36,501 bases of DNA from a virus. The DNA lies in the IMG/VR virus record IMGVR_UViG_3300028829_003058, positions 1,523-38,023 of that record; one strand, given 5' to 3'. Of the stretch, positions 1-36,501 are shown in pieces. How positions within the stretch are numbered: the first letter of the stretch is position 1; every line of letters begins with the position of its first letter. The notes under the pieces were generated by a model. The model was given only the letters and a program-made list of their open reading frames with translations. It was not told the DNA's origin and ran no database searches. The translations under genes were made by a program, and so were the position numbers.

Positions 1-3000
1 TGACCCTTCGATAATTGCTAAGTTAAAGGCGAGTTTTACAAGCCCACTGATCCGCATACTATCGATCTGGGATTCGTACGCTTTGATCTCACTTATTAGG
101 TCACCGTTTGTGAGTAGATATTCAAATATATGCTTACCAACAACTGAAGCAACGGTATCCGCTCCAATAACTCCTTCAGTAGCAGTTCCGAAAGTCGTAC
201 GATCCCCAAACACTTCGTCGAGGAAATTAATCGCTTCGGCAATGATTTCTTGCTGTCCGGGCACATCGGACATGACCAGCTCATCAACAAAAGAAGCCCC
301 GAGCTGAATAAGCAATGTTTCTGCTCCTATAAACTCATCCCCAAGTATCTGGTCAGAAACCAGTGGTACCAAGTCTTCAGTCTGGATAGATTCAGAATAG
401 GCTTCCAACACTTCATCTGCTGTGAGTGCGTAGTCAAAAACGGTAAGTCCATCTAGCCACCCGTCGAAATACGCAGATCCATCATACCCACCGTACACAG
501 CTGTAACGGTATCGACTGGCACATTTGTGCTGGCGTCAGTTCCGTCTAACAACCCGTCAATGTAAACCTTCATACCAGTAGAAGCGTGCAAAGTTGCACA
601 AATCATATAAACCTTTCCGGGCAGAACTGTCCCTGTGCTGGTAGCAGTGTGATTGGTTAAGTTCTCATACACCCGGAACTCAACTGTATTGTCTGCCAGT
701 ATCTTCAAACTAAGCACGTTAGTAGCACTAGCCCGCTCCGTATAAATGGGGATTACAGCGCCAGATGTAGTGATGTCTACCAAGCACATTATGGAAAAAG
801 CAGAACCACTCAGAACAGCAGATGTCCCGAACGTAATGTACTGGTTAGACCCACGATAGAATCTCATGGAATATGTATCAGGACGAGATCGCACAAGACT
901 GGGTTGTTCAAATGTAGGTGAACCTACAGCTGTACCGTCGAGTGTACCGACTGAATCAACAATCGTTGTTGGACCTGCATCGTTAAGAGACCAGACATGC
1001 TTAGCATTAAGCATGAGGCCAATAAGACTAAACCCAAACCAACCAAGTCTTGCCCAATGTAGACGTTTTAACTCTTCAGTCCCAAGCTCATAGTTATAGA
1101 GTAGTACTTCATCAATGGTACCAACGAAGTTTTGTGACCCGGAATCCAAGCTACCAATACATAGACTAGCCGTATTAAGAATAGAATTCGTACCAAGTAA
1201 ATCAGTAGAAGTTGAATTAGTTTGAGCTACGTTATCAACATAAATCGTCATCCCAGCAGTTAAGTTAGTGCCGTCGTACGTAACGCATACTTCATGGATA
1301 TTTCCATCGTTTATGGCAGAACCAGTAGAAGTGATAGATATACCAGTACCAGCTCCAGCACTGTAAATCTGGAACGTGATAATACCGTTCGCCATCTCAA
1401 CATTTATGCCTTGGTTAGAACCAGTCGTATCCATCTTGCTGACGAGGGTATACGTACCTGTACCAGATGTCTGGATGAGCATCCATATGCTGAATTCATG
1501 GTAATAATCAACAGTCCATACGCTGTTAAGATCTGCGTAATTAGTACCAGTAAAGGTAACGCATTTGTTATTGTCGTTTACAAGTAACCCAGCTACGTTG
1601 AGTGTTGGCGATCCCACATATGAGCCGTTGTACCGACTCATAAAGTCACCACATGTGGTGCCGCCATCTTCTCCCAATCTAAAATATGCAGCAGGAGCTA
1701 AATGCAGCGCATGGAAACTGAATCCACCTTTTGATTCTGTTCTACCCCGTGTGTTGTGCTTTCTAAAGAAGTGCCGCTGTTCATCTTGAGTAATTCCAGT
1801 GTGATGAAGAACTGCTAACTCGTCCATTACACCATTAAGAAATTTATTAGCCCAAGCACCGTTACGATAGGAACAACCAAAATACATGTTATCTACAAGA
1901 GACCACGGAAGACTCCAAGTACAATTTTGGGAAGGTACCTTTAAACCATCAATCCATGCTTCTATATTACTATTTTGAAAAGTACCTCCTGAATCAAAAA
2001 TAACTACATGATGTGGTTTTCCGTCGTTTAATTGACTTAGCTCTGGGTTGCCAGTACCAAGACGCAAATATACAGTGTGGTCGTGATTAGCAACAGTAAG
2101 CTCACCAGTCGCAAACTCATTGATATGTACTGTACATATCGAAGTGTTGCCAGTATCCATCGCCGCCCATAGTCCACTCGCAGCAGTAGTCGTAGTAACA
2201 AACCAAAATTCAAATGCTATTCTCCCATTACTACCAAACTGTAGAAAACGGAAAGAGTTACGACCAATATGATTTACACCATCAAAAGCCCATGCTTGCC
2301 CTGCAGGATCTAATACCAATGAACTCGCATTATTACCATTGGCAGTACCGAATAACGTAGCAGGACTTAACCCTTGGTTATAAGGAATCGCTTTGTCTGG
2401 TTCTACATCGGTTAAAGGGGGTGCAGATGCAATGCTTTCATTTAATCTATGGTAGTTATGCGGGTTGCTGAGTAAAACTTCCATAGCATAGCCAGTATTA
2501 CTTTCACTGGCATAATACATTTGCTTCTCTTCTTCATAGGTGAACTCGTAATCAAATAACGATATCTCAGTCAATTCACCATCAAAATATGTTCCCGCCG
2601 CATTTATAGCACCAATGCAAGGGGTACCAGTATTTGATACGGTACCTAGAGTACCAGTAGCAACGTTTGTTTTTGTTCGAACAAAACCATCAACGTATAT
2701 ATTCATCCCCGCAACGGTGCCACTACCGCTATACGTTATAACTGCGTGGTGCCACGCATCATCATTCACCACTATTGAACTCTCGTAGACTTCAATAGCG
2801 TTTGCTACAACGGTACCCCCAACAATACGGAATGCCAGATAGCCATCACTCCGCACATATACTTCCCATCCTCTGGAATACGCAGCTCCTTCTTTCTTGC
2901 TTATGATGCAGCCATCCGCAACCATCGCGGTCTTTAAACAAAACGAAATACTGAATGCGTCTGAAGCCCCGAAATCAAATATCCCGACATCTGGAAGTGT

Positions 3001-3618
3001 TACATGCTGGTCTATACCGTCGAATGTTACTGCGTCACTACCGTCTACATGCCCCGTAACTTCACGAGTGGGGTCATTCACATACGTACCCATGTTTCGG
3101 AATGTTTCATCGAAACACAGATCTACTACATTAAAAACTTTGACTTCTGAATTAGTCCATGTAAGAGAATCGAAAGCAGCGACTGGTGTGTACACAATGC
3201 CATCTTCTGAGTGCTCTATAACGAAGGAGCCGGGAGAATTAGATACACCAGCAGTATTACTCGCAGTAATAGCTATTTCCGCAACAACAACGCCCGGAGT
3301 AAACTCGTACCCAATACTCTCATTTTCAAAGTAACTAGCCGTAGATACCCAGTTAGTAGTCGTATTACCATCGAAAGCGTTGTCAACCCCAGTACCGGAT
3401 GTTGCGAACGCAGTACCACCCGTACACTGGTCAGCCCCACTGACAGTGGCACGCATCTCAATGTTGGCAATCTTAATGTCGTTGCCCCCACCGCTTAGCC
3501 CAGTTACACGGATACGCCAATACGGATATGCATTAGCACTAGGTTGCTTAGGATCAGACAGACGCCAGTACCCAAGTGGGTACTTCTGCATAGATACATA
3601 TTTAGCATTTAATGGCAT
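1..3618 (-). CDS. Giant discoidin/LamG tail protein, 3' end outside window
   Basis: The frame is open from an ATG at 3618 to the window edge, 1206 codons without a stop, so the C-terminus is missing. AGGT lies upstream and the gap to the preceding stop is 5 nt. Residues about 33-150 look like an F5/8 type C (discoidin) domain: a YWRIRVTG strand, an AFDGNTTTNW segment and a FVIEHSEDG strand. Four LamG/concanavalin-like modules follow at roughly 195-365, 440-615, 680-850 and 910-1070. Each has a FDG/FTG start, an HxVxxTYDG-type strand, IYVDG and an FDGxLDE-like end. Such modules bind carbohydrate or surface ligands in known proteins. As the last gene of the leftward virion operon it is probably a tail fibre or adhesin, by inference. 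The domain calls come from reading the translation and were not searched. Confidence 0.85.
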   Translation of the reverse strand, partial: MPLNAKYVSMQKYPLGYWRLSDPKQPSANAYPYWRIRVTGLSGGGNDIKIANIEMRATVSGADQCTGGTAFATSGTGVDNAFDGNTTTNWVSTASYFENESIGYEFTPGVVVAEIAITASNTAGVSNSPGSFVIEHSEDGIVYTPVAAFDSLTWTNSEVKVFNVVDLCFDETFRNMGTYVNDPTREVTGHVDGSDAVTFDGIDQHVTLPDVGIFDFGASDAFSISFCLKTAMVADGCIISKKEGAAYSRGWEVYVRSDGYLAFRIVGGTVVANAIEVYESSIVVNDDAWHHAVITYSGSGTVAGMNIYVDGFVRTKTNVATGTLGTVSNTGTPCIGAINAAGTYFDGELTEISLFDYEFTYEEEKQMYYASESNTGYAMEVLLSNPHNYHRLNESIASAPPLTDVEPDKAIPYNQGLSPATLFGTANGNNASSLVLDPAGQAWAFDGVNHIGRNSFRFLQFGSNGRIAFEFWFVTTTTAASGLWAAMDTGNTSICTVHINEFATGELTVANHDHTVYLRLGTGNPELSQLNDGKPHHVVIFDSGGTFQNSNIEAWIDGLKVPSQNCTWSLPWSLVDNMYFGCSYRNGAWANKFLNGVMDELAVLHHTGITQDEQRHFFRKHNTRGRTESKGGFSFHALHLAPAAYFRLGEDGGTTCGDFMSRYNGSYVGSPTLNVAGLLVNDNNKCVTFTGTNYADLNSVWTVDYYHEFSIWMLIQTSGTGTYTLVSKMDTTGSNQGINVEMANGIITFQIYSAGAGTGISITSTGSAINDGNIHEVCVTYDGTNLTAGMTIYVDNVAQTNSTSTDLLGTNSILNTASLCIGSLDSGSQNFVGTIDEVLLYNYELGTEELKRLHWARLGWFGFSLIGLMLNAKHVWSLNDAGPTTIVDSVGTLDGTAVGSPTFEQPSLVRSRPDTYSMRFYRGSNQYITFGTSAVLSGSAFSIMCLVDITTSGAVIPIYTERASATNVLSLKILADNTVEFRVYENLTNHTATSTGTVLPGKVYMICATLHASTGMKVYIDGLLDGTDASTNVPVDTVTAVYGGYDGSAYFDGWLDGLTVFDYALTADEVLEAYSESIQTEDLVPLVSDQILGDEFIGAETLLIQLGASFVDELVMSDVPGQQEIIAEAINFLDEVFGDRTTFGTATEGVIGADTVASVVGKHIFEYLLTNGDLISEIKAYESQIDSMRISGLVKLAFNLAIIEGS

Positions 3619-3623
3619 AACTA

Positions 3624-17425: not shown

Positions 17426-17776
17426 ATGTCCGAGAAATCCTTTGAGTTCGAAGCTCTGCATGGCTCCCTGTTCGCAGGCACTGCTGACTGGGGCGGCAAC
17501 TGGTCAGAGACCGGTGGCGCTGGTACCCATGCAGTCAAGCTCTCCGTAGAGGACGGCGTGCCATACGTCGCCTTCCGCAAGTACGGTGCTTCTAAGTGGA
17601 CACAGCACGAGGTTGAGTTGAGCGACTCTACTCACCCTTCCCTGCGTGGCCACGTCACGTTCAAGGGCAACGTCCTGAACATCTGGCTTAATTACACCAA
17701 GGGGCACGAGGGTGATTCAGAGTATGCACGCTATGATCTGAAACCTCGCGCACCCCGCGTTGAGCCACTCATCTAA
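17426..17776 (+). CDS. Orphan first gene of rightward operon (116 aa)
   Basis: The family is not recognised. ATG 17426 follows a near-ideal GGAGG site by 8 nt. Codons are C-ending to a greater extent than in downstream small genes, which suggests strong expression. The protein is small and beta-rich with many Trp, Tyr and Gly (ADWGGNWSETGGAGTHAV, VAFRKYGASKWTQHEVELS, VTFKGNVLNIWLNYTKG). The N-terminus is acidic, and there is no signal peptide or membrane segment. It looks like a compact globular beta protein. As the first gene after the divergent region, it may be an early host-takeover protein, by inference. Confidence 0.85.
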   Translation: MSEKSFEFEALHGSLFAGTADWGGNWSETGGAGTHAVKLSVEDGVPYVAFRKYGASKWTQHEVELSDSTHPSLRGHVTFKGNVLNIWLNYTKGHEGDSEYARYDLKPRAPRVEPLI

Positions 17777-20340: not shown

Positions 20341-20349
20341 GGCAAGGGT

Positions 20350-20371
20350 CCCCGGATCGAGAGATCCGGGG
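20350..20371 (+). terminator. GNRA-loop hairpin closing the unit
   Basis: CCCCGGATC pairs perfectly with GATCCGGGG (9 bp) around a GAGA tetraloop of the stable GNRA class, 9 nt after the stop. GCTTAATCC follows, so there is no U-tract. A terminator or protective 3' end. Confidence 0.55.
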
Positions 20372-20389
20372 GCTTAATCCTTCACGGCA

Positions 20390-20410
20390 CCGGGGTACAG
20401 TGGGGTCTGA
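20390..20410. repeat. 21-nt element, copy 2
   Basis: It matches 18417-18437 at 18 of 21 positions (core ACAGTGGGGTCTGA) and leads into the GTAC-rich block. See copy 1. Confidence 0.5.
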
Positions 20411-20733
20411 AATGTACGATTGTATGTACGACCATTTTTTAGACCCTAAAGCATTGATCCATAAAGCAAAAGCACCCTAGTTTGTACGATCCAAACACCC
20501 CTTCTATAGGTGGAGTACGTATTAGAGGGTGTGCGGGGGGCCTCTAGTACTACTAATACGTACCTTTATAAACCAATAGGTATAATAGTACAGTAGTACA
20601 AATCAGTCCCTTCTGCTTTATAAATCAACAAGTTGCTGATGTACGATCATCAGTACTTGTACGATCGTACATTTTCTCGATGATCGTACAAATGTACTAC
20701 CATTGTACGATCATCATTTTCACGGTAGTACAT
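20395..20733. promoter_or_regulatory. GTAC-rich repeat array, candidate operator or origin
   Basis: Seventeen GTAC tetranucleotides lie between 20395 and 20731. TGTACGATCATC occurs exactly at 20640-20651 and 20704-20715, and inverted at 20679-20690. A 14-bp palindrome TGTACGATCGTACA sits at 20658-20671. Shorter TGTACGAT/C copies lie at 20413, 20425 and 20483. ATGTACTACC (20692-20701) is inverted at 20724-20733, just before the next ATG. A candidate -10, TATAAT, is at 20581-20586 with no good -35. The block contains no gene. A phage repressor or replication initiator binding array is inferred. Confidence 0.75.
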
Positions 20734-20736
20734 CCT

Positions 20737-21375
20737 ATGAAAATAGTATTTGGCTCCTATGAATTCCCCACCAAGAAAGCCCTGATCGAGGAGATTCGAA
20801 ACCGGGTAAATGCCGCTAAATTGAATAAACCCATGACTCCTCAGGACACCAATTTCTTCTGGTGGCTTATCCACGACAGACATCGCCACGCTGAACACAA
20901 GTTGCTTCATCCTATAAAGCATTTCTTTGTCAGACGTGGTGATTACGGTGAGAAACAAATCTGGATGGAGTACGACAACGGGGAAATAAATGACTTCTCA
21001 TGGCGTGCCTGTGTCACACCACGCACCAACAAGGATGATGCACTGGCCGCTGGACGGACAGCTATAAAACCCCAGATACGTGAATTTGTAACTGAGTTAG
21101 ATGAACTACGTTGTGCAATATCAGGAGAACTGGTTACTTTTGGAGATTTCGACGTTGACCATCATCCTGTTCCTTTCAAACAATTATTCGACGAGTGGTT
21201 GTTTGCTGAAGGCCTGACCTACGACGACATAAAAACAAACATAGGAGAACCACGCAGTCTTACAACGTCCATGATCGTACAAGAACAAGAACTTAGCTGG
21301 CAGCAATACCATGAACGCTATGCTGAGCTACGAATATTGAAATCTGAGCTTCACAGGACACTGAAGAACAAGTAG
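20737..21375 (+). CDS. DCL/DUF3223-family protein with HNH-like C-terminus
   Basis: The 212-aa product has two parts. Residues 1-95 fit the DCL (DUF3223) domain: KIVFGSYEFPTKKA at the start, a central LLHPIKHFFVRR and the closing NDFSWRACV. DCL proteins in plants act in chloroplast rRNA maturation; phage versions have no known role. Residues about 122-155 contain CAISG, then FDVDHHPVPFKQLFDEWL, resembling an HNH-type nuclease core that often follows DUF3223 in phages. The ATG 20737 has no Shine-Dalgarno and sits at the end of the GTAC array. A longer start at 20680 is possible but lies within the repeats. An 11-mer of the array recurs inside the gene (21271-21281). Confidence 0.82.
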   Translation: MKIVFGSYEFPTKKALIEEIRNRVNAAKLNKPMTPQDTNFFWWLIHDRHRHAEHKLLHPIKHFFVRRGDYGEKQIWMEYDNGEINDFSWRACVTPRTNKDDALAAGRTAIKPQIREFVTELDELRCAISGELVTFGDFDVDHHPVPFKQLFDEWLFAEGLTYDDIKTNIGEPRSLTTSMIVQEQELSWQQYHERYAELRILKSELHRTLKNK

Positions 21376-24113: not shown

Positions 24114-24240
24114 CATATTACTGGCTGCAGTAGTGATATTCGGAATACTTCTGTTAATGGTCTATGCAGAAGAATTCGTAGCAGCATTGTGTGAAATAAC
24201 TGGATGCGAGGAAACATCAAGCAATGGAAGAACTGACTGA
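24061..24240 (+). CDS. Small membrane protein (59 aa)
   Basis: ATG 24061, within the end of the preceding gene, has a strong GAGGGGAG site 7 nt upstream. One hydrophobic helix, DILLAAVVIFGILLLMVYA, is flanked by a basic N-terminus and an acidic, Cys-containing C-terminus. It overlaps the next gene's start by 17 nt. Function unknown. Confidence 0.68.
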   Translation: MTKRGYKSYKPSLTLGCDILLAAVVIFGILLLMVYAEEFVAALCEITGCEETSSNGRTD

Positions 24241-24505
24241 TCCGCAAAGTAACGAAAAAATAAGTAGCCTTGCACGCCGGGTAAATGACATGTCTCCGAA
24301 TGAAGAACCTGTAGATAAAGACAAAGTACGTGCTTGCCGGGAAGAGTATGAGAAATTTGCTAACTTCCATGGAGCAAGACCAAAGAAGTATGTAACTGAT
24401 CCAGAGTTGTTCAGACAATTCATATCCAAGCAATATGACTTGAATACCCGTGCTGCTGCCAAGTTATGGTTAAAGCAGATGGGAGTGACGATAGAATTAC
24501 CATAG
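24224..24505 (+). CDS. Small charged protein (93 aa)
   Basis: ATG 24224 overlaps the preceding gene. The protein is hydrophilic and helical: EEYEKFANFHGARPKKYVTD, then PELFRQFISKQYDLNTRAA and a C-terminal WLKQMGVTIELP. No motif is recognised. It is the last gene before the structured non-coding block. Confidence 0.72.
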   Translation: MEELTDPQSNEKISSLARRVNDMSPNEEPVDKDKVRACREEYEKFANFHGARPKKYVTDPELFRQFISKQYDLNTRAAAKLWLKQMGVTIELP

Positions 24506-24514
24506 CTTATGGCA

Positions 24515-24780
24515 ACGTAGATTACCTCCCTAATCTACGTGCTGCACTGACGTTGTGTGGGCATGACGCAGTGCAGCTGCCACCTAATTCCCGTGTAAAT
24601 ATAGTACCTCCGTTATCGCAATAGGCCTCCCTGCTAATACGCGAGCTTACATATCACTGCACGGGATCTTAATAGCACGAGGCACAATAATGGGTGGTGA
24701 GCTGCAGCATCATTACACAAGATGTCCTCGATGCTGCCTCGTGTGATAGTAGTTTGCTGTAAGGACATCATCTGCAGCAT
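24515..24780 (+). ncRNA. Structured RNA or cis-regulatory leader
   Basis: This 290-nt gap is gene-free but dense in exact stems. ACGTAGATTA/TAATCTACGT (24515-24540) is 10 bp. GCTGCACTG/CAGTGCAGC (24541-24577) is 9 bp. TCCCGTG/CACGGGA pairs 24589-24595 with 24660-24666. CACGAGGCA/TGCCTCGTG pairs 24676-24684 with 24735-24743, enclosing GCAGCATC/GATGCTGC. GATGTCCT/AGGACATC (24721-24728 with 24762-24769) crosses the previous stem. A second GCAGCAT at 24774-24780 competes for the same ATGCTGC, 15 nt before the next start codon. Either a trans-acting RNA or a switching leader is possible. No known RNA family is recognised. Confidence 0.55.
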
Positions 24781-24795
24781 AGTTATGGAAACGAC

Positions 24796-24990
24796 ATGAA
24801 CTTACTTGATTACGAAAAACGTATTACTGAATTGGAACGAGAAGTAGCGAACCTGAAACTGGATAAGATAGAAGTTCAGAGCCAACTGAACATGCTATCA
24901 ATGCTCGTGTCATGGATGAAACGAAAAACAGTATGGGAAGCAATCTGTGATGACTATCCATGGCTGAAGGAATACAACGATGGCAGCTAA
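24796..24990 (+). CDS. Coiled-coil small protein (64 aa)
   Basis: The first two-thirds form a clear heptad coiled coil (YEKRITELEREVANLKLDKI, EVQSQLNMLSMLVSWM), followed by WEAICDDYPWLKEY. A GGA lies 6 nt before ATG 24796, a weak site that the upstream RNA structures could cover. Not recognised. The end overlaps the next gene by 11 nt. Confidence 0.75.
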   Translation: MNLLDYEKRITELEREVANLKLDKIEVQSQLNMLSMLVSWMKRKTVWEAICDDYPWLKEYNDGS

Positions 24991-27701: not shown

Positions 27702-29197
27702 TGGGATGGAAAGTACGTGACCCGGAAAACAAACAGCCAACTCCGCGCCGAAAAAAGGCAACACCTCTCCCTTCAAAAAAGAAAAGAATTGGCAGAACGG
27801 CAAAGGTTTCCGTCAAGACCAACGCTTTTGAGTTATTCGATGCACCGGGTGTTGCGCCGCTCTACGAAAACCAAATAGAGACACGCACACACCTACTAGA
27901 AAATCCTTGTACCTATGATGCTTCAGACCCCGGTACTGGTAAAACCAGATCTGAAGTAGAAGCATGGGCTGCACGCAGACGAGTTGGTGGTGGATGCCTG
28001 CTGGTGCTATGTCCCAAGTCAATCATGCAGGTAGCATGGGGAGATGACATTGATACATTCTTCCCAGCAGAATTTACTTATGTAGTAGCCACGGCTGCTA
28101 ATAGAAAAGCAGCATTCGATTCAGATGTAGATATCTACATTACTAATCTGGATGCAGTGACATGGCTCGCCAAGCAACCGAAAAGTTTCTTTGATAAATT
28201 TGATGAAGTGGTAGTAGATGAAGCTACTGCCTATAAAAATCCACAGAGCCAACGATCTAAAGCTGCCAATAAGGTAGCTGACTTTTTTGATTACAGACGG
28301 CTACTGTGCGGTACACCAATGCCGAAAGGCGTGCTGGATATGTGGATGCAGATGTTTCTTCTGGATCGCGGCCAGCGGCTGGGACAGAGTTACTATAAGT
28401 TCCGTAGCCAGATGTGTGATGTGAAACAGGTAGGTCCACGTCCTGAACACAGGCAATGGACAGACAAGCCGGATGCAAGCACCACAGTTGCAGGGTTGAT
28501 AGCTGATATCACCATACGTCACAAGTTTGAAGACTGTCAGAACATTCCGCCTAACGTACAACGAACGAAGTATTTCGAATTAAGTAAAAAGCATCGCGAA
28601 CAGTACGAGGAAATGAGACAGCACGCTATTATTGAGACCGAAGGTCATACGGTAATGGCAACCAATGCTGCTGTACTGGCTAACAAGCTGGTACAGATAG
28701 CATCTGGATCTGTTTACTCCCGTGAAGGAGAAAAAGTACAACTACATCCCGAACGAACCGAGCTAGTCATGGAACTAGTGCAAGAGCGGGAACACAGTAT
28801 TGTATTCTTTCAATGGGAGCATCAATTACACGCATTACGAGAACGAGCTGACAAACTGGGAATTACTTATGAATCAATTTATGGCGCTGTTCCTGACAGA
28901 AAACGAGAGAAAATCGTACATGGCTTTCAAGAAGGGTTGTATCAAGTTCTTTTCCTCCAACCCGAGTCGGCGGCTCATGGACTTACCCTTACGAAAGCTA
29001 CTGCCTCCATATGGGCGTCCCCGACGTATAGGCCGGACATAATGCGGCAGGGTCTTGCCCGTATTTACAGGGCAGGACAGGAATACCTGACCGAAAACAT
29101 CCGTATCTGTGCGCGTGGTACTGCTGATGAGCATGTCTTCCAAGTAATGGAAGGCAAGGCTGTACGTATGGATGCATTACTCGGATTCCTTGAGTGA
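27701..29197 (+). CDS. SNF2-like superfamily 2 helicase/ATPase
   Basis: The 498-aa protein is close to the SNF2-type helicases of phage replication modules. Walker A is DPGTGKT with Lys81, in place of the usual GxGKT preceded by E-x-G. Motif II is VVDEATAYKN (DEAT, 173-176). LLCGTPMPKG is motif III. The C-terminal RecA-like domain has VFFQWEHQLH, the LQPESAAHGLTLT segment and motif VI QGLARIYRAGQ (about 450-460). The first 40 residues are basic and likely disordered. It starts at TAATG with no Shine-Dalgarno, suggesting coupling. Likely DNA remodelling or strand displacement in replication or recombination. Confidence 0.9.
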   Translation: MGWKVRDPENKQPTPRRKKATPLPSKKKRIGRTAKVSVKTNAFELFDAPGVAPLYENQIETRTHLLENPCTYDASDPGTGKTRSEVEAWAARRRVGGGCLLVLCPKSIMQVAWGDDIDTFFPAEFTYVVATAANRKAAFDSDVDIYITNLDAVTWLAKQPKSFFDKFDEVVVDEATAYKNPQSQRSKAANKVADFFDYRRLLCGTPMPKGVLDMWMQMFLLDRGQRLGQSYYKFRSQMCDVKQVGPRPEHRQWTDKPDASTTVAGLIADITIRHKFEDCQNIPPNVQRTKYFELSKKHREQYEEMRQHAIIETEGHTVMATNAAVLANKLVQIASGSVYSREGEKVQLHPERTELVMELVQEREHSIVFFQWEHQLHALRERADKLGITYESIYGAVPDRKREKIVHGFQEGLYQVLFLQPESAAHGLTLTKATASIWASPTYRPDIMRQGLARIYRAGQEYLTENIRICARGTADEHVFQVMEGKAVRMDALLGFLE

Positions 29198-32205: not shown

Positions 32206-32988
32206 ATGGCAACACGCAAAAAGGCTATAGCTCACAAGAGCGGCACAAACCTTCCGGCTAATATCGACAAGCAAATGGAGGAAGAAGCACGCAACATCAA
32301 CAGTACCATCACTAATGTCGGTAGTGACCAAATCAAGCTGGACCAAGACAACGGCTTGTTCTTTGAAATTCCCGGTCTTGGCCAAGCTGAACCTCCAATG
32401 GAAGTAGTCGTGGTTGACTACATTTCGTCCAACCAGTTCTACATCGACCCGTATGACAAAAACAATATTGTCCCGCCTGACTGCTGGGCTATTGGCAAGG
32501 ACATCCGGGCGCTGGCTCCTGATCCGAATCGTGTTACAGATCCTGAAGCTGAAACCTGTGCTGAGTGCCCGAATAATGAGTTCGGTAGCAAGGGTGCTGG
32601 CAAAGCTTGTCAGAATCGTTTTCTGGTTGCAGTTGTTCCGCCTGATGCAGACGAGGATGAAGAACTGCGTTATCTGAGCATCAGTCCAATGGGACTAAAG
32701 AGCTTCAGTACATTCGTATCGGCAGTGGCAGCACGTTTCAAGAAGCCGCCAGTCGGTGCCATCGTTGAAGTCGGTATCGTGAAGGCCGGTAAGGGCTTTA
32801 CCACGTCATTCGGTAAGTTTAAACCGAATCCGAATTATCGCGAGCATTACATGCGTCGTGATGATGCCAAACCAGTACTGGAAGCAGGCTTTGAAGCTGC
32901 TGCCAGTGGCAACACTGACAAGCCTGCACCAAAGCGTAAGGCTGCTCGTAAGAAAGCACCTGCCCGTAAGCGTCAGGCACGGAGGTGA
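32206..32988 (+). CDS. Possible ssDNA-binding protein (260 aa)
   Basis: The region from about residue 65 to 215 looks like an OB-fold with an inserted metal site: CAECPNNEFGSKGAGKACQN has Cys spacing typical of phage replication-associated proteins annotated as ssDNA-binding or hypothetical. GAGGA lies 10 nt before ATG 32206. The last 35 residues are almost only Lys, Arg, Ala and Pro (APKRKAARKKAPARKRQARR), unlike the acidic tails of classical SSBs. Location in the replication cluster fits. The family assignment is tentative. Confidence 0.7.
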   Translation: MATRKKAIAHKSGTNLPANIDKQMEEEARNINSTITNVGSDQIKLDQDNGLFFEIPGLGQAEPPMEVVVVDYISSNQFYIDPYDKNNIVPPDCWAIGKDIRALAPDPNRVTDPEAETCAECPNNEFGSKGAGKACQNRFLVAVVPPDADEDEELRYLSISPMGLKSFSTFVSAVAARFKKPPVGAIVEVGIVKAGKGFTTSFGKFKPNPNYREHYMRRDDAKPVLEAGFEAAASGNTDKPAPKRKAARKKAPARKRQARR

Positions 32989-34577: not shown

Positions 34578-34586
34578 GAGAAAACA

Positions 34587-36501
34587 GTGCAGACTAACAA
34601 CGCGCAACGAGAAATTGAGTCAACGTTCGAAGCAAAATCAAGTAAGTTCAGGATTGAGGCATCATCAAAAGCCTTTCAGATCCTGAGTTCAAATCTATAT
34701 ACAGACAAGCCATTAGCTATTATGCGCGAACTGGCTTGTAATGCACTGGATGCCCACTGGGAAGCTGAGTGTAAAGAACCTTTCCAGATAATTCTCCCCA
34801 CCGCATTAAATCCCTCTCTTGAGTTCCATGATTATGGCATAGGCATGTCGCCTGAAAAGATAGGGACACTATTCACTACATTCTTCGCGTCCGATAAGAA
34901 CCTGACTAATGCTGTGATAGGTGGTCTGGGGCTAGGATCAAAAACACCGTTCAGTTATACAGATACATTCACACTCGTTTCTTACTGGGAAGGAATGAAA
35001 TACACATTCCTGTGCTATATAGACGAGGAAGGTGAACCATCAATACAGGCAGCTGGCGAGCCGGAACCATCTGAAGAACCTCGTGGAATTCATTACATCA
35101 TCCCTGTAAAGAACGAAGACTTCAGTACGTTCCGGTATAAAGCGCAAGCTGTTCTGAAATATTTTCCTGAAGATTCCTACACTATCAACACAGACATCTC
35201 ACCACAGGACTATGCAATCAAGAATGATATGTATGGACTAAGGGCTAATGCTTCATATGGTGAGAAACATATGAATGTGCTGATGGGGCCAGTTGCATAC
35301 AAGATGGATAAGGAGGCTTTACCTGAAAAAATACAAAGACGATTTCGTTCATTGCTGCGTGAAAAGCCGATAGATGTATTTTGTAATATTGGTGACATCG
35401 ATATCGAAGCATCAAGGGAAGCATTGTCATATGACAAAAGATCCCAAAAGAAGATCGAAGTTGTACTGCAGGCAGTCAAAGACCGTATCAAGGATGATAT
35501 GGAAAAGGAACTGGTTAATTGCTCCACGTATCTGGAAGCATGTGCAAAGGCTACGGAACTATCATCCGACTTCAGCTTTAACATCGATAGTATGTACTGG
35601 CGCGGGACCAAGCTGACAACAGATTTTGCCGGAGAAGAATGTGACATAGTTTCCTCTGGTTCACTTACGGCTAATAATCAGTTACGACTTAACTATTCCA
35701 GATACCACAGCTTGAATGCACAACGCATTATGGAAGCCAAGATCATGCTATATGATCCTTCCATACCTATGAGCAACCATAAATTAAAACATTACTTGCT
35801 GGAGAATCCATCAATTAATGTGGTTGTGTTTCGTAATGAAACCAAGATGCTCAACTGGATGTGGAGATTACAACTGTTCGATCATTCATTGGTAGAAGAT
35901 CTGCCAATGCCACCTGAGAAGGAACTGGAAAGAACTACCAAGGGTACACGCCGCAAGACGGCACCAGTTAAGTTAAAGATCAGAACTGGTTTCAATGAAT
36001 GGGAAGCAGCCACCAAGACAATTGAAGAAATAAATGAACTGGAGAATGCGTGCTGGGCACCATTATCCGGTGGCGGCTACGAACCGTGGGCAAAAGACAC
36101 ACACGCTGACTTATACAGAGCCGTGTGCAACCTAAGCGGTGACGCTGTAAAGATGGTTGGAATACCCAAGTCCTTAATGCATAAGGCAAAATCTATTACT
36201 CTGCCTTACATAGAAGAATTCGTCCGGTTCAAGATGATTGAATTCATCGATACAGAAGAACGATATAACATGGCTTTTATAGCCAGATCTGAACTGAAGT
36301 GGATGCCAGAATATGCTCAACATGTCCCGGAAGATTGGCATCATTTGGAAGTATCCCAGTATGCATTGGAGTACAGAAACCTGAGTGATATGAGGCGACA
36401 GTACCGGCATGTATGTGGAGACTTGTTTAAATGGGATATCGATAAGAAATTCAGTCTTATCGAAGAAGCGGAATACAGAAAAAAGTACAAAGTATTTCGT
36501 G
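34587..36501 (+). CDS. rIIA-like GHKL ATPase, 3' end outside window
   Basis: A GTG at 34587 with AGGAG 6 nt upstream opens a frame that runs to the window edge (638 codons). The N-terminus is a GHKL ATPase of the Hsp90/MutL/rIIA kind. Motif N is RELACNALDAH (Glu48, Asn52, Asp55); G1 is HDYGIGMS (Asp82, Gly84, Gly86); G2 is GGLGLGSKTPF (112-122). T4 rIIA-type proteins counter host or prophage exclusion, though this activity is known only for a few phages. The rest is helical without recognised domains. Confidence 0.88.
   Translation, partial: MQTNNAQREIESTFEAKSSKFRIEASSKAFQILSSNLYTDKPLAIMRELACNALDAHWEAECKEPFQIILPTALNPSLEFHDYGIGMSPEKIGTLFTTFFASDKNLTNAVIGGLGLGSKTPFSYTDTFTLVSYWEGMKYTFLCYIDEEGEPSIQAAGEPEPSEEPRGIHYIIPVKNEDFSTFRYKAQAVLKYFPEDSYTINTDISPQDYAIKNDMYGLRANASYGEKHMNVLMGPVAYKMDKEALPEKIQRRFRSLLREKPIDVFCNIGDIDIEASREALSYDKRSQKKIEVVLQAVKDRIKDDMEKELVNCSTYLEACAKATELSSDFSFNIDSMYWRGTKLTTDFAGEECDIVSSGSLTANNQLRLNYSRYHSLNAQRIMEAKIMLYDPSIPMSNHKLKHYLLENPSINVVVFRNETKMLNWMWRLQLFDHSLVEDLPMPPEKELERTTKGTRRKTAPVKLKIRTGFNEWEAATKTIEEINELENACWAPLSGGGYEPWAKDTHADLYRAVCNLSGDAVKMVGIPKSLMHKAKSITLPYIEEFVRFKMIEFIDTEERYNMAFIARSELKWMPEYAQHVPEDWHHLEVSQYALEYRNLSDMRRQYRHVCGDLFKWDIDKKFSLIEEAEYRKKYKVFR

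Follow-up and report, generated by a model that had tools for sequence, protein, structure and literature searches.

The window analysed here comprises 36,501 nucleotides and is part of a 38-kb virus record (IMGVR_UViG_3300028829_003058). A second copy of the same phage is found in the IMG/VR contig IMGVR_UViG_3300028844_003150 (67,281 bases), which is 99.5-99.9% identical to the window in the parts compared. This 67-kb contig lacks about 54 nt in the helicase gene (window positions 27969-28022) and about 60 nt (32532-32591) in the gene at 32206-32988, in each case a length that is a multiple of three. The terminase of the phage is 39-40% identical to its counterparts in Aeromonas phage phiA008 and Pseudomonas phage KPP25, the DNA polymerase shows 37% identity to that of KPP25, and the gene order primase-sized gene, RecB-type exonuclease, helicase and polymerase is common to KPP25 and the window phage. 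The phage is a distant relative of Kochitakasuvirus. A codon model indicates that the ends of the window are gene-poor, with about 3.6 kb (1-3623) and about 1.9 kb (34578-36501) lacking a convincing long gene; the latter region contains no Rfam match.

The subject of this analysis is a 266-nt block (24515-24780) on the + strand within the replication operon, which lies between two small genes (Table 1). The genes from primase to polymerase are co-directional and tightly packed, and the block is the sole gap of more than 110 nt in this stretch. The stop codon of the upstream gene is located 9 nt ahead of the first hairpin, H1, and the start codon of the downstream gene 16 nt past the end of the last hairpin, H5. 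The downstream gene has a weak Shine-Dalgarno sequence (GGA; -3.3 kcal/mol versus -5.4 to -11 for many neighbour genes), and no Pfam family matches its 64-aa product above the cut-off. No convincing signal for an own promoter or terminator flanks the block, and no intrinsic terminator, that is a G+C-rich hairpin followed by a T run, was found on the + strand between 24000 and 25400. The description of the block as gene-free in an initial annotation is nearly right, except that an open reading frame for 52 amino acids (24466-24624) overlaps H1 and H2.

Table 1. Genes, predicted hairpins, exact stems and sequence words in and around the block (window positions)
Feature	Coordinates	Strand	Properties
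Upstream gene	24224..24505	+	93 aa, no family match, codon score 0.20
Downstream gene	24796..24990	+	64 aa, predicted coiled coil, codon score 0.22
H1	24515..24540	+	perfect 10-bp hairpin, loop CCUCCC, pair probability 0.89-1.0
H2	24541..24577	+	9 + 7 bp, one-base bulge, two G-U pairs, loop UGGG, pair probability 0.98-1.0
H3	24589..24666	+	closed by 9 bp (UCCCGUGUA/UGCACGGGA)
H4	24676..24743	+	outer stem 24676-24681/24738-24743, inner stem 24704-24711/24730-24737
H5	24755..24779	+	7-bp hairpin UGCUGUA/UGCAGCA, arms 24755-24761/24773-24779, 11-nt loop AGGACAUCAUC
Kissing segment, H4 loop	24721..24728	+	GAUGUCCU, 18-nt loop, pairs with 24762-24769
Kissing segment, H5 loop	24762..24769	+	AGGACAUC, 11-nt loop, pairs with 24721-24728
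Exact stem	24515-24524/24531-24540	+	10 bp
Exact stem	24541-24549/24569-24577	+	9 bp
Exact stem	24676-24684/24735-24743	+	9 bp
Exact stem	24704-24711/24730-24737	+	8 bp
Exact stem	24721-24728/24762-24769	+	8 bp
Exact stem	24589-24595/24660-24666	+	7 bp
CCTCC words	24525-24529, 24607-24611, 24626-24630	+	in structured block

Stem excess and folding energy

The six exact inverted repeats of 7-10 bp that the initial annotation had listed are all found where it placed them. In total, the block contains 11 perfect stems of at least 7 bp compared to 1.98 in dinucleotide-preserving shuffles, none of which reaches 11 (0 of 400), and five perfect stems of at least 8 bp compared to 0.49 (0 of 400). Several of the 7-bp stems depend on each other, as they share the recurrent word GCTGCA/TGCAGC. 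The stem counts of the block are reached by about 0.4-0.9% of 550 window segments, the densest being in a palindrome array (20461-20659), and only at this array (20412-20732) is the stem density within the window higher than in the block. The array itself belongs to a gene-free block ahead of the primase operon (20341-20735, fold z -8.7), in which a terminator-like hairpin (20350-20371) is followed by the array of TGTACGATC/GATCGTACA palindromic words and which resembles an array of operators or an origin of replication.

The predicted hairpins fall into two domains, H1-H3 (domain 1, 24515-24666) and H4-H5 (domain 2, 24667-24795). In the three hairpins of domain 1, bases pair with a probability close to 1. 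The apical part of H3 is poorly defined and H3 contains two CCUCC words in addition to that in the loop of H1. Between the outer and inner stems of H4 lies a bulge of 22 nt on the 5' side; in an alternative form, H4 adopts the 9-10 bp stem 24675-24684/24735-24744 of the initial annotation. Four G-U pairs occur in H2, H3 and H5, which are pairable solely in the + strand RNA. A comparison of folding energies with those of shuffled sequence, which had been proposed as a check, bears out the fold for the whole block (z = -3.6) and for domain 1 (z = -6.08 on the + strand versus -3.96 on the - strand), but not for the crossing part, as domain 2 is ordinary under nested folding (z = -0.9). Since the z values of the genome background are themselves shifted (mean about -0.6 to -0.9, with several segments, some of them coding, at -4), the folding energy of the block has to be read against this background.

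A predicted helix between two hairpin loops

The loops of H4 and H5 are perfectly complementary over 8 bp, and H1-H5 and this kissing helix are mutually compatible, with no base used twice. The initial annotation had noted that stem 24676-24684/24735-24743 crosses stem 24721-24728/24762-24769 and that two copies of GCAGCAT are found alongside a single ATGCTGC; both the crossing and the words are present. The competition of the two copies for the one ATGCTGC, however, is unneeded, as in H4 the first copy (24704-24711) has its partner at 24730-24737, whereas the second GCAGCA has one of its own at 24755-24761 in H5. Mutually exclusive pairings are likewise dispensable, as one fold accommodates all the listed stems if only the 9-bp stem is shortened by its final 3 bp.

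The best pair of crossing helices in domain 2 has a stacking energy of -36.6 kcal/mol versus -20.7 kcal/mol (sd 3.5) in shuffles (0 of 2000), a score reached by one of 846 window segments and extreme because of the contact between the H4 and H5 loops. This rarity supports the earlier suggestion of a pseudoknotted structured RNA just upstream of a start codon. As the kissing test was framed after the structure had been seen, its rates serve as a guide and not as clean p-values: among 6000 shuffles of domain 2, three contain two hairpins with stems of at least 6 bp and loops complementary over at least 8 nt. For the full 281 nt, such pairs appear at a rate of 0.3% if stems must have at least 6 bp and of 3.2% if 5 bp suffice, and in 0 of 3000 shuffles if at least 7 bp are required. 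When the window was scanned with a loop complementarity threshold of 7 nt, further cases came solely from the palindrome array (20551-20826), with 10 nt, and from position 17676, with 7 nt. In the nested minimum (-36.5 kcal/mol), 24673-24686 pairs with 24723-24736 and thereby occupies most of the H4 kissing segment, and the kissing fold is calculated to have -34.8 to -36.7 kcal/mol if a pseudoknot penalty of 9.6 kcal/mol is applied. Since the two folds are near-equal in energy, a two-state switch between them would be possible according to these models. A bistable leader, as envisaged in the initial annotation, is thus conceivable.

Searches for homologues and comparison with known elements

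Does the block belong to a known class of RNA? As the initial annotation had surmised, it resembles none: no Rfam 15 family matches at the gathering threshold in the window, the best sub-threshold matches in the block having E values of 0.07-9.5, and ARAGORN finds no tRNA or tmRNA. Among bacterial families in Rfam, only IS605-orfB-I RNA (RF03065), the TnpB-associated omega RNA, matches the block weakly (24590-24781, E 0.11). At 17.9 bits against a threshold of 94.2 bits, and with the TnpB-type domain PF07282 absent from both phage contigs, this match was taken as chance. The folding models suggest that the block is a structured, probably pseudoknotted RNA outside every Rfam class.

The sole other copy of the block, an identical one, is in the 67-kb contig of the same phage. 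Between these strains there are about 3 differing sites per kb, and the lack of any difference in 281 nt is therefore uninformative. Single-query protein searches with the neighbour proteins, the primase and the polymerase reached only this same contig. A polymerase alignment yielded 80 relatives at 36-44% identity, none of which encodes the neighbouring small proteins or has anything resembling the block. Moreover, blastn against phages and plasmids gave nothing. Viral contigs were searched for the exact patterns of H1, H2 and the H4 core, and genome contigs for that of the H4 core, which yielded the same phage or no match. Single-sequence covariance models gave only chance-level matches in 86 sources including related phage loci, and in the best of these matches (L086), which was rejected, most outer pairs are broken. 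The block looks like a real RNA control element that is unique so far.

Hairpins between genes serve as processing or stability elements of phage mRNAs, as at the RNase III sites of T7. The block shares with these sites strong tandem hairpins between co-directional genes, but its H1-H3 array is larger and followed by a kissing domain, and processing is a proposal here. ToxI-like RNAs of type III toxin-antitoxin systems consist of tandem repeats of pseudoknot units ahead of a ToxN-like toxin gene; there are no tandem repeats in the block, and the protein encoded downstream is the one without a Pfam match. The pseudoknot-dependent repZ leader of the IncI-alpha plasmid ColIb-P9, which has relatives in IncB and IncL/M plasmids, has in common with the block a hairpin loop able to pair with a segment just upstream of the start codon, and the loop complementarity of the IncI type is found here over the 8 bp of the kissing helix (3 of 6000 shuffles). 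A 25-codon frame (24722-24799) that lacks a Shine-Dalgarno sequence ends in an ATGA overlap with the start at 24796, as would be expected of a coupled leader peptide of the IncI type, but such a frame is present in 8% of shuffles. Unlike in ColIb-P9, the gene that follows does not encode a replication initiator, the contact is made from loop to hairpin loop, and there is no sequence similarity to any plasmid. The translational operator of gene 32 in phages T4 and RB69 is a pseudoknot in the 5' leader of an intercistronic phage mRNA, located 5' of the ribosome-binding site, and consists of a pseudoknot of about 28 nt plus UUAAA repeats (PMC535899). The block is similar in being a predicted pseudoknot 5' of a ribosome-binding site between cistrons of a phage mRNA. 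In contrast to the gene 32 operator, it has five hairpins in 266 nt and no UUAAA array, and the 64-aa product, a predicted coiled coil, has no match to a single-strand-binding family. The block is a member of neither the IncI-type leaders nor the T4 gene 32 operators.

Possible functions of the block

What could be the function of such a block? We tentatively favour, at somewhat short of an even chance, a cis-acting, structured mRNA element that lies between cistrons on the + strand of the replication operon. Counted for this reading are the stem excess, the z values of the + versus the - strand, the rarity of the crossing and kissing helices, the compatibility of H1-H5 with the kissing helix, the G-U pairs, the sole large gap in the operon, the weak Shine-Dalgarno sequence and the lack of a prominent promoter or terminator signal within the block; counted against it are the lack of a homologue beyond the same phage, the z value of domain 2, the post hoc kissing test and the accessibility of the start region at 24796, for which neither masking nor freeing, and no change, is predicted under nested folding. 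In this reading, H1-H3 form right after the upstream stop codon, a position that suits an mRNA boundary, and most likely serve as such a boundary that would separate upstream from downstream mRNA as a barrier to 3' exonucleases or as a site of double-strand-specific processing. H4 and H5 would form just ahead of the 24796 gene, joined by the 8-bp loop-loop helix, and their position immediately ahead of a start codon whose Shine-Dalgarno sequence is weak suits translational gating. The kissing state would compete with the nested fold of similar energy, and the choice between them, made by the timing of folding during transcription, by ribosome passage, by an antisense RNA or by a protein of phage or host, could govern translation of the 64-aa gene from its weak ribosome-binding site. 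The analysis shows the sequences, the excess of stems, the geometric compatibility of the helices, the rarity of the kissing pair and the position of the block, whereas transcription as one RNA, formation in cells, the direction and trigger of control and the function of the element are what we infer.

Alternatively, the block could give rise to a discrete, stable phage RNA of about 270 nt, either excised from the transcript of the operon or transcribed from a weak promoter, that acts in trans to titrate a host factor, bind messages or counter a defence. This is the main rival, possible though rather improbable. A compact multi-hairpin fold with a tertiary contact would suit such an RNA, as would the three CCUCC words, which are similar to the core of the 16S rRNA anti-Shine-Dalgarno sequence and might base-pair with ribosome-binding sites. 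Three words compare to 0.15 expected (0.0002 of shuffles), for a motif picked after the fact, and GGCCTCCCT at the third of them is a perfect 9-nt complement of the ribosome-binding site of the primase (AGGGAGGCC). However, pairing with the 47 ribosome-binding sites of the window is no better than in shuffles (mean duplex energy z -0.33; match number p 0.09), for which reason an anti-Shine-Dalgarno sponge was rejected; moreover, the block sits within a co-directional operon and lacks a convincing flanking promoter or terminator. It would be a long shot that the CCUCC-bearing three-hairpin array and the loop-loop-locked domain work together in a new phage RNA class of about 270 nt, unrelated to any described RNA family, which would be either a switch or a stable RNA that acts on translation in the host or the phage.

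A small or decayed gene, represented by the 52-aa frame (MVKADG...PPLSQ) over H1 and H2 with the rest degraded, is unlikely. The frame is open and shares with many phage genes an overlap with the gene upstream, and its non-overlapping part has an intermediate codon score (0.04 per codon) that is as extreme in 5.8% of coding and 7.6% of non-coding segments. It has, however, no Shine-Dalgarno sequence (-0.2 kcal/mol) and no homologue or family match in database searches, and it does not cover H3-H5, where other frames score as non-coding. Even less weight is given to a site at the DNA level, where a protein would bind the dyads of an operator, recombinase or replication site and RNA folding would be a by-product. 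H1 does form a perfect palindrome (10-6-10) that has a 78% direct-repeat partner 82 bp further on, the words TGCAGC/GCTGCA recur, and elsewhere in this phage, at 20412-20732, there is a clear palindrome array. In the block, though, the arms differ in sequence, unlike the single repeated word of that array, and no further viral contig contains the palindrome of H1. A DNA site is further disfavoured because the four positions at which H2, H3 and H5 deviate from Watson-Crick pairing are G-U on the + strand and would be mismatches in DNA. Other readings share a small remainder.

A multi-hairpin element with kissing loops in the replication operon of a distant Kochitakasuvirus relative would be a second, architecturally different case, and as an orphan it illustrates how such RNAs escape family-based searches. 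It leads to the precise prediction that the phenotype should be rescued by compensatory mutation of the eight kissing pairs.
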